From: an uncultured Nitrosomonadaceae bacterium | GTDB lineage: Bacteria; Pseudomonadota; Gammaproteobacteria; Burkholderiales; Nitrosomonadaceae | Length of the DNA stretch: 64,000 nucleotides | Direction of reading: 5' to 3' | Assembly (NCBI GenBank): GCA_943787405.1 | Contig: CALSMH010000003.1 | Span: 386,218 to 450,217, forward strand | Shown: piece by piece, positions 29,537 through 64,000 of the stretch | Layout of the letters: every line of letters begins with the position of its first letter | Numbering within the stretch: the stretch's first letter is position 1 | Notes under the pieces: model-generated | The model's database searches: none | What the model was told of the DNA's origin: nothing | The model's input: only the letters and a program-made list of their open reading frames with translations | Translations under genes and position numbers: made by a program

Positions 29537-30355
29537 ATGGCAACAACATACGGTTCAACTGGAACAGCAGCCAAAGCATCTTCTGGCTCCTGGGATCAGT
29601 CACTTTGGTATGACTCAAGGTGGTATAAATTTGGCATGGCACTTATGCTATTAGTAGCGTGTTTCTGGATTTGGTACCAACGTACTTTTGCTTATTCACA
29701 TGGCATGGATTCGATGGAGCCTGAATTTGAAAAAGTCTGGATGGGTCTATGGCGCGTTCACATGACAGTAATGCCTACCTTTGCATTGATTGCTTGGGGC
29801 TGGATCTGGAAAACAAGGGATACCAAAGAACAATTGGATAACCTGGATCCAAAACTAGAAATCAAACGCTATTTCTATTGGATGATGTGGTTAGGCGTAT
29901 ACCTATTCGGTGTGTATTGGGGCGGTAGCTTCTTCACCGAGCAAGATGCTTCATGGCATCAGGTAATCATACGCGATACTAGTTTCACACCTAGTCATGT
30001 CGTAGTATTTTATGGTTCTTTCCCAATGTACATTGTTTGCGGAATCTCTAGCTATCTTTACGCTATAACCCGTTTGCCACAGTACAGCAGAGGCACATCG
30101 TTTCCTTTAGTATTTGCGATTGCTGGTCCGCTGATGATTCTGCCAAACGTTGGTCTTAACGAATGGGGACATGCTTTCTGGTTCATGGAAGAACTATTCA
30201 GTGCACCATTGCATTGGGGATTTGTAATTCTGGGTTGGTCTGGTCTGTTCGCAGGCGGGGTTGCAGCACAGATAATTACTCGTTATTCCAATCTGACTGA
30301 TGTGATCTGGAACAATTCTGATCCTATCATTCTGAATAACAGGATCAAACCCTAA
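29537..30355 (+). CDS. amoC: ammonia monooxygenase subunit C (stand-alone copy)
   Basis: AmoC is the membrane subunit of ammonia monooxygenase, which oxidises ammonia to hydroxylamine. The 272-aa product has six or so membrane segments and the family copper-site ligands: Asp137 and His141 (TEQDASWH) and His154 (TPSHVVVFY), matching the Asp-His-His set of PmoC. No amoA or amoB is near, so this is a solo amoC, as Nitrosomonas genomes are known to carry beside full amoCAB operons. In N. europaea the divergent solo copy is linked to stress and starvation recovery. This protein looks close to operon-type AmoC, but I cannot score identity. A strong terminator follows. Confidence 0.97.
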
Positions 30356-59088: not shown

Positions 59089-59610
59089 TTACGCGTAACG
59101 TAACACCATAGCTATACTCTTATTTGTATAAATTTCAATCCGATTTGTTACTTCTACTTTAAAACCAGCAGCAAGATAAGCGCGAATTGCGGCTTTATGA
59201 CTCCGCGCCACTCCCAATATTATTTCGTCAATATCTCGTGTGGAATTGAGCCACTTGGAAGATGCGACAATTACCTCAGCCGCAACCTTCTTCCCATGCC
59301 AACTGGCTTCGCCAATAAGGATACCCATTACTGCAAATCGATTTTTAGAGTCCACCGGCTCATATTTTATATTTCCAATATGGATCCCAGAATTCTTTTC
59401 GAAAATACCAAGAAACAAAACATCTTCCCGTTCACATCGCTCTTGAACATATTGTTTGAGAGAGTCTAGACTTGGTTTTAATGTAGCCGCACTGATATAT
59501 TGGCTTACTGTTTGATCAGTGAGCCAGCTTAAGTAACGTTCGCCCACATCATCAGGAATTAACGACTTCAACAAAAAACGATCCGTAGAAATCACAACTG
59601 GAGGTATCAT
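59089..59610 (-). CDS. GNAT N-acetyltransferase (PseH-like context)
   Basis: This is a 173-aa acetyltransferase of the RimJ/RimL-like GNAT group, with LKSLIPDDVGERYLSWLTD, VMGILIGEASWHGKKVAAEVI (acetyl-CoA loop region) and AAIRAYLAAGFKVE. In nonulosonic acid clusters a GNAT (PseH) acetylates the 4-amino sugar; its place beside a pseI remnant and PseC-like genes supports that role, but sequence alone does not prove it. Its ATG overlaps the stop of the upstream broken reading frame (TGATG). Confidence 0.8.
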   Translation of the reverse strand: MIPPVVISTDRFLLKSLIPDDVGERYLSWLTDQTVSQYISAATLKPSLDSLKQYVQERCEREDVLFLGIFEKNSGIHIGNIKYEPVDSKNRFAVMGILIGEASWHGKKVAAEVIVASSKWLNSTRDIDEIILGVARSHKAAIRAYLAAGFKVEVTNRIEIYTNKSIAMVLRYA

Positions 59611-59817
59611 CAGACGAGCAAATCCACAATAAGATCCGTTCCGCGCTTAGCATCTTGCTTTACAAACTTGACCAATACAAATTTAAGATATTTTGTTGGT
59701 AACTCGACAATATCCAACACACGCTCCAAAGATTGGTTATGATTGCCAGACATTTCTGGCTATAACAAATGTGGTTTGGTCTGTGCCAATTTCTTTATCA
59801 GCAATTCTTATGCTCAT
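59610..59817 (-). pseudogene. pseI: frameshifted 5-prime remnant of pseudaminic acid synthase (pseI)
   Basis: ATG at 59817 starts MSIRIADKEIGTDQTTFVIA, the typical PseI/NeuB-type opening. One extra base then shifts the frame at about 59756; in the next frame the sequence reads EMSGNHNQSLERVLDIVE, the signature that follows directly in PseI. After about 38 codons PseI similarity ends, and an unrelated short stretch runs to the TGA at 59610-59612 that couples to the GNAT start. The gene is broken by both a frameshift and a large internal loss. Confidence 0.85.
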
Positions 59818-59877
59818 TATTCATCACTCACAATTATTATGTTCCTACCCAAAGCAAAAGTTTCGGCCGTCTCAAAC

Positions 59878-59943
59878 CTATTCTATCGCAAAATGGTAGC
59901 AAATCAGAAATTGGACTACTAGTGTTCTGATATTCATCCTCAC
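59878..59943 (-). pseudogene. possible abortive gene start with strong ribosome binding site
   Basis: AAGGAGG (59953-59959, minus strand) lies 9 nt before a GTG at 59943 (or an ATG two codons later) that opens only 22 codons (MNIRTLVVQF...). A perfect Shine-Dalgarno for such a short frame suggests the start of a lost gene. Given its place between the aminotransferase and the pseI remnant, a pathway gene such as pseG is possible. This is inference. Confidence 0.4.
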
Positions 59944-59961
59944 TTTAGCATTCCTCCTTCA

Positions 59962-59997
59962 CACGGATCATCACTACCACCATCCTAATGATCCGTG
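59962..59997. repeat. 10-bp inverted repeat with 16-nt spacer
   Basis: CACGGATCAT (59962-59971) and ATGATCCGTG (59988-59997) are exact complements. The element lies 26 bp downstream of the class III aminotransferase stop. No T-run follows in the minus direction, so it may be an mRNA-stabilising hairpin or a recombination scar. Confidence 0.6.
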
Positions 59998-60022
59998 AGC
60001 AGAAAATATCTATTCTTGTGCA

Positions 60023-61312
60023 TCAGCGCACTTTGAATAATGGTTCTAGCGGCTGACAGCGCAGCATCGATTCAAGTTTTTTGTTGCGTACGCCCTCTAC
60101 CAGCATCGGAATAACCTCATCATATGCATTGAGAAGTTTATCTAAATCAGCATCCGTGTGGCTGTAGCTCATGTTGTGGGTGCCAATAATCAGGATTCCG
60201 CGCGCAAACATCTCCTGCAAAAATAATGTCTTGATCTGCCACTGACTATAATTAGCCGTATCTTTAATCAAGAAAAAGCTCCATGTCGGATTTCCAGTGA
60301 CGCCCAAAAAGTCTTCTGCACCTGCCGCAGCGATACATACCTTTAAGCCATCCATTACCTTTCTACCTTGCGTATAGAGCGTGTCGGTAACCGGCTTCCT
60401 CTCAAGTTTTTGCATGGTAGCAAGCGCCGCCACTAAAGATAGTGTCTCACCGCTGAAGGTGAAGGAAAAAAATATCTCTTCCATGAGTTGCATGACATCC
60501 GCACGGCCAACTACAGCCGACACTGGGTAGCCGTTGGCAAGCCCCTTGCCGAAAGTAGCCAGGTCTGGCATCACGCCGAAGTGCTGTTGAGCGCCGCCAA
60601 TTGCGTAGCGGAAGCCGGTAACAGTCTCATCAAAGATCAACAACGCACCATGTTTGTGCGTTAGCGCCTTCACTTCTTCCAGAAAACCAGGAAGGGGCTC
60701 TGTCACGTTCATCGGCTCAAGGATCACTGCTGCGATTTTGTCAGGATACTCCTGAAATAACTTGGCAAGGCTGCTGATGTCATTATACGTCCAGGTATGT
60801 GAAAGGTCGCGGGTTACCTGGGGCACCCCGCGATTGCGCGCGGTAGTGCCAATGTACCAATCCTGCCAGCCATGGTAGCCACAGGTTGCAACATGATCGC
60901 GATTGGTAAAAGCCCGTGCCAGACGTATCGACCCAGCCGTGGCATCGGAGCCATTCTTGCCAAAACGCACTTTTTCAGCGCATGGCACAAGTTTGACGAT
61001 CAGCTCAGCCACCTGCATTTCGAGCGGATGTGGTAACGAAAAAATCACACCCTCCTCAAGCTGTGCCCGCACGGCGGCATCCACATCTGGATCGCAATAA
61101 CCCAAAGTAATCGCAGCCAAACCGTTGACAAAGTCGATGTATTCGTTGCCATCGGCATCCCATACCCGGCTACCCTTGCCACGCTGAATAAAGAAAGGTG
61201 AAACGTCCATCGGGTATTGAGTTTTGCTTTTACTGAATGTCTGTGACCCAAGGGGTATAGTTTTTAATGCTCTTTCCAACAAATCTTCAGAATGATGGTA
61301 GCGTTCAGACAT
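60023..61312 (-). CDS. class III aminotransferase (glutamate-1-semialdehyde aminomutase-like)
   Basis: This is a 429-aa PLP enzyme of the class III group: VRFGKNGSDATAGSIRLARAFTNR, CGYHGWQDWYIG, LIFDETVTGFRYAIGGAQQHFGVMPDLATFGKGLANGYPVSAVVG with the PLP lysine in FGKGL. It resembles HemL but lies in a glycan operon with an SpsF-like gene and a PseC-like gene, where such enzymes are found beside nonulosonic acid genes. A haem-pathway role is therefore unlikely. It is 4 bp downstream of the SpsF-like gene. Confidence 0.88.
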   Translation of the reverse strand: MSERYHHSEDLLERALKTIPLGSQTFSKSKTQYPMDVSPFFIQRGKGSRVWDADGNEYIDFVNGLAAITLGYCDPDVDAAVRAQLEEGVIFSLPHPLEMQVAELIVKLVPCAEKVRFGKNGSDATAGSIRLARAFTNRDHVATCGYHGWQDWYIGTTARNRGVPQVTRDLSHTWTYNDISSLAKLFQEYPDKIAAVILEPMNVTEPLPGFLEEVKALTHKHGALLIFDETVTGFRYAIGGAQQHFGVMPDLATFGKGLANGYPVSAVVGRADVMQLMEEIFFSFTFSGETLSLVAALATMQKLERKPVTDTLYTQGRKVMDGLKVCIAAAGAEDFLGVTGNPTWSFFLIKDTANYSQWQIKTLFLQEMFARGILIIGTHNMSYSHTDADLDKLLNAYDEVIPMLVEGVRNKKLESMLRCQPLEPLFKVR

Positions 61313-61316
61313 ATTA

Positions 61317-62096
61317 TTATTTCTCTTTGGCTTGGTTAGCGGTTAATGACAAATCTGCGTTGAATGACTTTTGATAACCTTCATTACGCTTATGCTCTGT
61401 GTTCCAGTGCGCCAGTTCCGATCGTTGATCCAGCAAGTCCAGAATATCCTGCGTCACAAAATTTGGGTTGGTTGGATAAAGTGCTTCATAGATCATGGTA
61501 ATCAATTCGAAATCTTTTGGCTCATCCACCGTCCAGCGCAAATGGGACAAGTCAGTTGAACTCTTGAAATGACCTATCTTGAAGCGAAGTGGATGCTGAT
61601 ATATGAACGGTGTCACATGTTCACGTTGTGATAGTAGTTGGGCTTCTCGCCATACCTGTTCAAGACAGGTAAAACGGAATACCTCCACATCCAATCCATC
61701 AGGGTATGTGGCCTGAATCGAATTGCTGGCATAGTCGAAACCGCCACCCGTATAGAATTCGATGGCTTCATCGATCAGCTGTGGATCCGTTAATGGGCAA
61801 TCTGCCGTAAGACGCACAACATGTTCAGGGGTAAATACCCGCGCGGCCTGATAGAATCGGTCCAGCACATCATCGAGGCTTCCACGATGACATTCAATAC
61901 CATTCTCTTTACATAACTTATATATAAGATCATCGGTTGGCTCAGTACTGATCGCCACCAGCAACTGGTCTATTTTCTGTGATTTTTGCAGTCGTTCTAT
62001 CTGTCTTAACAGCATAGGCACGCCAAGCAGCGACTTGAGCACCTTTCCCGGCAAGCGGGATGATGAAACACGTGCCTGCAATATTGCCAATATCAT
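61317..62096 (-). CDS. SpsF-like cytidylyltransferase family protein
   Basis: This 259-aa protein matches the CMP-sugar synthetase superfamily of SpsF type: LAILQARVSSSRLPGKVLKSLLGVPML (3-29), VVRLTADCPLTDPQLIDEAI, DVEVFRF and LRWTVDEPKDFELI. In a pseudaminic-type pathway this is the PseF position, loading the nonulosonic acid onto CMP. It overlaps the aldo/keto reductase gene by 4 bp. The C-terminal 40 residues after LLDQ look variable. Confidence 0.85.
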   Translation of the reverse strand: MILAILQARVSSSRLPGKVLKSLLGVPMLLRQIERLQKSQKIDQLLVAISTEPTDDLIYKLCKENGIECHRGSLDDVLDRFYQAARVFTPEHVVRLTADCPLTDPQLIDEAIEFYTGGGFDYASNSIQATYPDGLDVEVFRFTCLEQVWREAQLLSQREHVTPFIYQHPLRFKIGHFKSSTDLSHLRWTVDEPKDFELITMIYEALYPTNPNFVTQDILDLLDQRSELAHWNTEHKRNEGYQKSFNADLSLTANQAKEK

Positions 62097-62986
62097 TTCT
62101 TTTCCTTATCAAATTGCCATAAAGCAGGATTGACTATCGATTCGTCCTCTATCGCGAATTCGGCTAATTCATTAGAGTCGACCTCGACTTGCGCTGCCTC
62201 ACATATCTCCCCGAGTTGCAGGGCGTTGTTCACCCCGCAAATAACTTGGTCGATCTCTTGTAAGCCTAAAACAAAACCCAGTGCCGCCTGGATTGGTGTT
62301 AAACCACGTGCTCGTATAAAACAATGGTAAGACTCGAGATTTTTGCGTATTACATCAAAATATTCAGGTACATTTTGCAGTTCCATCAGCAACAATCCCT
62401 GCAAAAATGTCGAACGCGCATGTATTTCAACACCAACACTTTTAAGTTTTTGTAGATGGCCGCTTTGTAGTAGACGTTGGTCCAGTACATTAATCGGCAA
62501 CTGGACCAAATCTATTTGAAACCGCTCCATCACTTGATCAATCTGACTACCTGAGTAGGCCGACACGCCGACCTTGCTAACCAAGCCATTCTGCTTCAAT
62601 TTCAATAACCGATTCACCAGCAACTCGCCTCCAGGTAGCAATAGATCTTCTGCCCTGTGAATCAACAAGCCATATACAGAGGATGCGCCCAGCTGTGCAA
62701 GGGAAGAATGCAGCATATCTTCCAGATGTTGGGCGTCCGACTCATCTAGCACTTGCTTGGAAAACTGCGGGGTTTTTGTAACTATCTTGAAACCTGGCCT
62801 CTGTGGCAGGGACTCTCCCAACACTGCTTCGCTATCCCCGTAGAGAGCTGCGGTATCAATCACTCGGATGCCGTTATTTTCAGCTGCGGTGAGTATTGCG
62901 CCAACTTCCGTTTGTGAAGTCTTTCCAGCCTTGTTCGAGATACCGTAATTCACACCAAATTGTACGGTGCCAAGTGCAATCCTCAC
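62093..62986 (-). CDS. aldo/keto reductase
   Basis: This is a 297-aa NAD(P)H-dependent reductase with the TIM-barrel family marks: VIDTAALYGDSEAVLG (catalytic Asp and Tyr), KIVTKTPQF (Lys), GLLIHRAEDLL (His) and FVLGLQEIDQVICGVNNALQLGE for cofactor binding. Family members in nonulosonic acid clusters are thought to act on sugar intermediates, but the substrate is not shown here. It overlaps the genes on both sides by 4 bp, so this is a tight operon. Confidence 0.9.
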   Translation of the reverse strand: MRIALGTVQFGVNYGISNKAGKTSQTEVGAILTAAENNGIRVIDTAALYGDSEAVLGESLPQRPGFKIVTKTPQFSKQVLDESDAQHLEDMLHSSLAQLGASSVYGLLIHRAEDLLLPGGELLVNRLLKLKQNGLVSKVGVSAYSGSQIDQVMERFQIDLVQLPINVLDQRLLQSGHLQKLKSVGVEIHARSTFLQGLLLMELQNVPEYFDVIRKNLESYHCFIRARGLTPIQAALGFVLGLQEIDQVICGVNNALQLGEICEAAQVEVDSNELAEFAIEDESIVNPALWQFDKEKK

Positions 62987-64000
62987 CCTACAAGCTCCTT
63001 GAAGGCTGATATGACATCATTTTGCTGCTCATCTGTCAGATCATAGAATAGCGGGATACTCAAGCCTTCCTGATAATAGGATTGGGCATTCGGGTATTCC
63101 TCGGGATTAAAACCAAGCATCCGGTAATGGGGCTGGGCAGGCACCGGAATATAATGCACTTGACTGCCAATGTCCCGTGACCTGAGCTCCTGCATCAGCT
63201 GCCCCCTATTCAAACCGATTGAGTCAAAATCAATCCGCAGCACATAGAGGTGGTGGCCGCTCTGATCACGCCCCATAGCCTGGGCAGGGCGACAATTACG
63301 TATACCAGCAAACGCCTCGTCATATTTCTTAACTAGAGCACGTCGTCGGGCAATAAATCTATCGAGTTTTTTAAACTGAGAAAGTGCTAACCCGCATTGA
63401 ATGTCAGTGATACGATAGTGAAAACCGAGTTCCTGCATTTCGTAGTACCAAGGGTTTCGCACACCATTGGTCTCTGCTTGCTCTGGCAATTGGAACGGAT
63501 CGTCAGATTTGTTGATACCATGGCTGCGCAGCCGCAGCAGTTTGCGATAGGTGGCCTCGTCATTGGTGGTGATCATGCCTCCCTCACCTGCGGCTATCGC
63601 TTTGACAGGATGGAAGGAAAAAATTGTCATCAGTGAATAAGCGCAGGAACCTACGCGTTGTCCGTTTGGATAAGTTGCTCCCAGAGCGTGAGCCGCATCT
63701 TCAATCACGACTACACCTGCTTTGTCAGCAATTGATTTGATAGCCAACATGCCGCATGGTAGGCCAGCAAAATGAACTGGCATCAAGGCTCGAACATCCG
63801 GATTTTTTGCCAGCGTCTGTTTGAGACTTTCTAGAGACATATTTATTGTATCCGGATCAATGTCTGCAAAGATCACGCGACCGCCAACGTAGAGCGCTGC
63901 ATTGGCGCTAGCTACAAATGTTATTGGGGTTGTCACTAGCGCTTTGCCAGGGCCGACACCTGCTGCCAGTGCTGCAAGATGCAAGGCAGCAGTGCCGCTA
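62983..64000 (-). CDS. pseC: PseC-like DegT/DnrJ aminotransferase, 5-prime end beyond the window
   Basis: This is a PLP-dependent sugar aminotransferase of the DegT/DnrJ/EryC1 family. The PLP lysine is in FSFHPVKAIAAGEGGM. Other matches are TPITFVASANAALYVGG, VVIEDAAHALGATYPNG and HHLYVLRIDFDSIGLNR. The overall pattern fits PseC, which makes UDP-4-amino-4,6-dideoxy-AltNAc. The reading frame stays open to the window edge (SGTAAL before HLAAL), so the real start lies outside; the TTG at 63984 is internal. About 50 N-terminal residues are missing. Confidence 0.88.
   Translation of the reverse strand, partial: SGTAALHLAALAAGVGPGKALVTTPITFVASANAALYVGGRVIFADIDPDTINMSLESLKQTLAKNPDVRALMPVHFAGLPCGMLAIKSIADKAGVVVIEDAAHALGATYPNGQRVGSCAYSLMTIFSFHPVKAIAAGEGGMITTNDEATYRKLLRLRSHGINKSDDPFQLPEQAETNGVRNPWYYEMQELGFHYRITDIQCGLALSQFKKLDRFIARRRALVKKYDEAFAGIRNCRPAQAMGRDQSGHHLYVLRIDFDSIGLNRGQLMQELRSRDIGSQVHYIPVPAQPHYRMLGFNPEEYPNAQSYYQEGLSIPLFYDLTDEQQNDVISAFKELVG

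Follow-up and report, generated by a model that had tools for sequence, protein, structure and literature searches.

A pseudaminic acid synthase gene reduced to its two ends in a nonulosonic acid operon of a Nitrosomonadaceae bacterium

The minus strand at 59817-59610 was found to contain both ends of pseI, the pseudaminic acid synthase gene, and the remnant is a pseudogene and not a PseI. Between its two parts, about 281 codons (about 840 bp) were found to be absent, codon ~38 being joined directly to the last ~30 codons. Because these internal codons are lost, a working synthase is impossible, whatever the frameshift that is also present. The reading preferred here, with a probability of about 0.9, is that of a pseI killed by internal deletion, the original pseG-pseI segment of a mosaic polysaccharide locus having been removed. 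The window, i.e. the whole stretch of 64,000 nucleotides that was analysed (G000:C3:386218-450217), belongs to a 1.45-Mb genome assembled in 8 contigs, with a completeness of 97.65% and a contamination of 2.12%. The remnant was found near the window end, inside a polysaccharide locus that extends past it, and the locus was read past the window to the contig end (L003, L004). The features of the window are given in Table 1.

The window was also found to contain bacterial amoC at 29537-30355 (NF041641, 387.8 bits, above cut-off), and the organism therefore either oxidises ammonia or is closely related to an ammonia oxidiser. This amoC was isolated among unrelated genes, and amoA or amoB were not seen adjacent to it in the list of open reading frames.

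Table 1. Features of the pseI remnant and of its flanking genes (window positions)
Feature	Position	Strand	Remarks
Intact GNAT acetyltransferase, downstream of the remnant	59089..59610	-	PF13302, 50.8 bits; 42% to the L022 GNAT that follows pseI
Stop codon of the pseI remnant	59610..59612	-	TGATG, 1-base overlap with the GNAT start codon
pseI C-terminal remnant, ~30 codons	59613..59702	-	T. thioparus PseI from residue 327 (~327-355)
pseI N-terminal remnant, ~38 codons	59703..59817	-	~residues 10-45 of T. thioparus PseI
Gap at the pseG place of the closest relatives	59823..60022	-	Position agrees; local alignment within shuffles
Intact class III aminotransferase (glutamate-1-semialdehyde aminotransferase-like)	60023..61312	-	89% identical to T. 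thioparus
Intact SpsF-type cytidylyltransferase	61317..62096	-	PF02348, 114 bits; 78% to T. thioparus
Intact aldo/keto reductase	62093..62986	-	PF00248; 64% to T. thioparus
PseC aminotransferase, extends past the window end	62983..64000	-	TIGR03588, 486.9 bits vs cut-off 423.5; complete at L003:4201-5472

Anatomy of the pseI remnant

The N-terminal part of the remnant starts with the ATG at 59817 (-) and was found to read the N-terminus of PseI, MSIRIADKEIGTDQTTFVIA, followed by a one-base shift (one extra base) near 59757, after which the other frame reads EMSGNHNQSLERVLDIVE. This second frame contained an internal ATG at 59753. The PseI-type N-terminus, the one-base shift and the EMSGNHNQSLER signature in the other frame had been noticed in the preliminary description and were borne out, the DNA of the N-terminal part being aligned to T. 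thioparus pseI with a score of 69, as compared with 39 for the best of 500 shuffles. The similarity had been said to stop after EMSGNHNQSLER, whereas it was found to resume from 59702, where the frame of EMSGNHNQSLER runs on as LPTKYLKFVLVKFVKQDAKRGTDLIVDLLV, followed by a stop codon, and this is the C-terminus of PseI. The protein alignment of the C-terminal part to PseI gave a score of 75 (shuffle maximum 43), and its DNA gave a score of 40 with T. thioparus pseI (maximum 34) and of 70 with the pseI of another member of the family (L106; null maximum 40). Not more than 18 of the 30 residues of this part were identical to those of any relative.

Homology to PseI was thus found at both the N- and the C-terminus. 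The deleted portion was found to comprise almost the entire NeuB barrel and the greater part of the SAF domain, the domain limits (NeuB barrel 36-272, SAF 288-341) being taken from the genome's own intact PseI-type gene. The remnant does not contain a complete barrel and SAF domain, and its longest piece scored only 12.7 bits with TIGR03586, the cut-off of which is 340.25. The single-base lesion of the preliminary description is therefore retained as a frameshift and given up as the main lesion, since the main one is the internal deletion of ~840 bp. The deletion took out the missing codons and brought the two ends together, and the one-base shift additionally broke the N-terminal part. Both lesions are known from one genome assembly of the species.

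The short open frame that is left might be taken for a leader of 47 codons, from the ATG at 59753 to the stop at 59610, which passes ribosomes to the GNAT gene. The frame is open from 59753 to 59612, the stop of the remnant overlaps the GNAT start in TGATG, and the deletion preserves the reading frame; however, frame retention in a deletion is expected by chance in 1/3 of cases, no Shine-Dalgarno-like site was found before the ATG at 59753, and the same remnant was not found in any relative, so that a leader of this kind is very unlikely. The middle of pseI, and pseG as well, could also have been lost when a draft or metagenome-derived genome was assembled, and the 8 contigs and the completeness and contamination given above would allow for it. 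Against such an artefact, which is scarcely to be expected at all, stand the divergence of the surviving ends themselves, as seen in the low C-terminal identity, the separate frameshift, the absence of pseG as well, and the genome, in which no other piece of pseI or pseG of the remnant's lineage was found.

The operon in relatives and the place of pseG

The class III aminotransferase was used to scan genome contigs for relatives, and 80 loci were obtained, the closest of which was that of Thiobacillus thioparus DSM 505 (L005), with an aminotransferase identity of 89%. Its operon was found to contain the genes for an ABC transporter, pseB, pseC, an aldo/keto reductase, a spsF-type protein, the class III aminotransferase, pseG, a methyltransferase, a phosphoesterase, an ATP-grasp protein, pseI and GNAT, in this order, the pse names being assigned by comparison. 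In T. thioparus DSM 505 and in about 40 other loci, the aminotransferase was found to be followed by pseG and, after it, by pseI, and the core order with both genes after the aminotransferase was found in most other loci of the scan. The window contained pseC, aldo/keto reductase, spsF-type and aminotransferase genes, followed by the gap, the pseI remnant and GNAT. By this synteny, the operon is of the known type pseB-pseC-aldo/keto reductase-spsF-class III aminotransferase-pseG-pseI. The earlier proposal that a pseI has decayed within a nonulosonic acid operon was supported by the synteny and by the matches at both termini, and the PseC, SpsF-type, class III aminotransferase, aldo/keto reductase and GNAT genes were intact as had been described.

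Above the level of paralogues, this aminotransferase was found in 0 of the 7 other genomes of the genus, and therefore either this lineage acquired the operon or the others have lost it. Since no searched member of the same genus carries the aminotransferase operon, the state before the deletion was deduced from other genera. No literature was found on this operon type or on nonulosonic acids in Nitrosomonas. Three papers that mention pseG, pseI and pseudogenes reportedly concern the flagella of Campylobacter and Enterobacterales.

A second abortive start had also been described upstream of the remnant, and the AAGGAGG at 59959-59953 (-) followed by the GTG at 59943 was found to be present, at the place of pseG. 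This region is likely the place of a lost pseG, although its identity to PseG by sequence is unproven. If 59943-59823 were itself a remnant of pseG, the two genes would have lost their middles separately. This would agree with the presence of pseG after the aminotransferase in the relatives, with the position of the GTG, 80 nt past the aminotransferase stop as compared with 87 nt for the pseG start of T. thioparus past its own, and with the initial residues MRMNIRT, which resemble PseG starts such as MRIVIRT. However, 34 of the 4797 start sites of the window equalled or beat the GTG at 59943 in the start-site scoring, including MVVMIRV from the same gap, and the score of the local DNA alignment of the gap to pseG was reached by 201 of 1000 shuffles, which is not significant. 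Positions 59823-59943 likewise matched none of the genes in the related loci. Two separate losses are therefore a tentative reading, held at somewhat less than even odds. The whole gap (59823-60022) was also compared with the methyltransferase, phosphoesterase and ATP-grasp genes of T. thioparus, of which it might have been a remnant, and no match was found.

For the preferred reading of a pseI killed by internal deletion, the absence of pseG as well means that the pseG-pseI segment would have been removed as one stretch or stepwise. The absence of pseG is observed, and the order and mechanism of the loss of the two genes would follow from reconstruction.

Intact PseI-type gene, missing pathway step and mosaic locus

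Another pseI elsewhere in the genome had been suggested as one of three possible consequences, and an intact PseI-type gene was indeed found at C3:461786-462766, 11.5 kb past the window end. It scored 436 bits over positions 1-327 of 327, above the TIGR03586 cut-off, and almost its entire length was covered in an alignment with 8h2c, a pseudaminic acid synthase of solved structure. By family score it is a predicted PseI, with the condensation of 6-deoxy-AltdiNAc with phosphoenolpyruvate as its putative reaction. Its score was the lowest of the 47 genomes above the cut-off in a 300-genome sample of the order, and its best relatives among the loci were the PseI of Colwellia-type operons (54-55%). 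Judged by alignment, the intact gene and the remnant are of different lineages: the remnant scored 62 (N-terminal part) and 35 (C-terminal part) against the intact gene, versus 119-125 and 66-75 against operon-type PseI. That the remnant is a duplicate of the intact gene was ruled out, because operon-type PseI matches it far better. A 150-aa protein adjoining the intact PseI (L003:17821-18273) matched neither Pfam nor NCBIfam families, and no relatives of it were found in 300 genomes of the order.

In this genome PseB (526.1 bits), PseC (486.9 bits) and PseI (436 bits) were all above their family cut-offs, and a PseH-like protein scored 42.7 bits (cut-off 93.1) and a PseF-like protein 128.9 bits (cut-off 205.7). 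A genome-wide search for pseG had been called for in the preliminary description; no PseG was found at E<=0.001 with TIGR03590 (controls detected), nor with a 13-sequence profile, and no NeuC-type hydrolase (PF02350) was found genome-wide. PseG was present at E<=1e-20 in 44 of the 47 PseI genomes of the 300-genome sample, 41 of these being above the cut-off. PseI without PseG was seen only in this genome, G166 and G244 among the 47.

As neither PseG nor a NeuC-type hydrolase was found, the pseudaminic acid pathway has one step unaccounted for, and since the intact PseI-type gene is of another lineage and PseG was not found, this gene should not be read simply as a replacement for the remnant. 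The pathway may be dead, the step may be served by an unrecognised enzyme, or pseG may be located in the few percent of the genome missing from the assembly. It is improbable that a nonulosonic acid is made by a route with the divergent PseI-type enzyme, no PseG and an unrecognised release of UDP, and that the loss of pseG and pseI marks a switch to that sugar.

A block of ~19 kb (C3:450472-469079; L003:5473-19901 and L004:1-4179) was found between pseC and pseB, just past the window end, whereas pseB and pseC are adjacent in T. thioparus, without the intervening block. The block contained the intact PseI gene together with a NeuB-type gene (C3:459392-460366), a KdsC-type phosphatase, a transketolase-like protein and a PseF-like cytidylyltransferase, the last four forming a second nonulosonic acid set. 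The identity to T. thioparus was 74% for the ABC transporter and 75% for pseB, and only 47% for pseC. The DNA identity to T. thioparus was found to climb along 60023-62986 (aldo/keto reductase 66%, SpsF-type 76%, aminotransferase 83%), and the synonymous divergence was found to fall along the same genes. This gradient of identity suggests recombination within the operon. The block would have come from elsewhere, perhaps bringing a pseC of its own, and the original pseG and pseI would have been lost afterwards. The original segment was probably dispensable once the block had arrived, or may simply have decayed in a small genome.

The picture is thereby corrected from that of a frameshifted gene to that of a gene with a deleted middle, the adjacent pseG being missing as well. 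For annotators, intact PseC, aminotransferase and SpsF-type genes alone are no proof of pseudaminic acid production. The case is one of ordinary pseudogenisation and gene loss in the surface-sugar locus of a small-genome ammonia oxidiser, and its wider importance is small.

Comparison with known systems

The remnant shares with PseI (TIGR03586; NeuB PF03102 and SAF PF08666) both ends, the EMSGNHNQSLER motif and the C-terminal stretch LPTKYL...VKQD.KRGT, as well as its operon position. It differs from PseI in the missing internal codons and in one shifted frame, a functional enzyme thus being impossible.

With the operon of T. thioparus DSM 505, the locus was found to have in common the order from pseC to the aminotransferase, the place of pseI and the GNAT gene after it, and also pseB and the ABC transporter, which lie further upstream. 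In contrast to that operon, it contained no pseG, a gutted pseI and none of the three genes found there between pseG and pseI, its pseC was of another lineage, and ~19 kb separated its pseB from its pseC.

The same-family genome (G023:C32, L088 and L106) was found to contain an aminotransferase, a PseG fused to a GNAT domain and a PseI (504.5 bits) in a row, and the C-terminus of this PseI was among the two that matched the remnant best. These genes are intact, unlike those of the window, and the aminotransferase is only 36% identical to that of the window.
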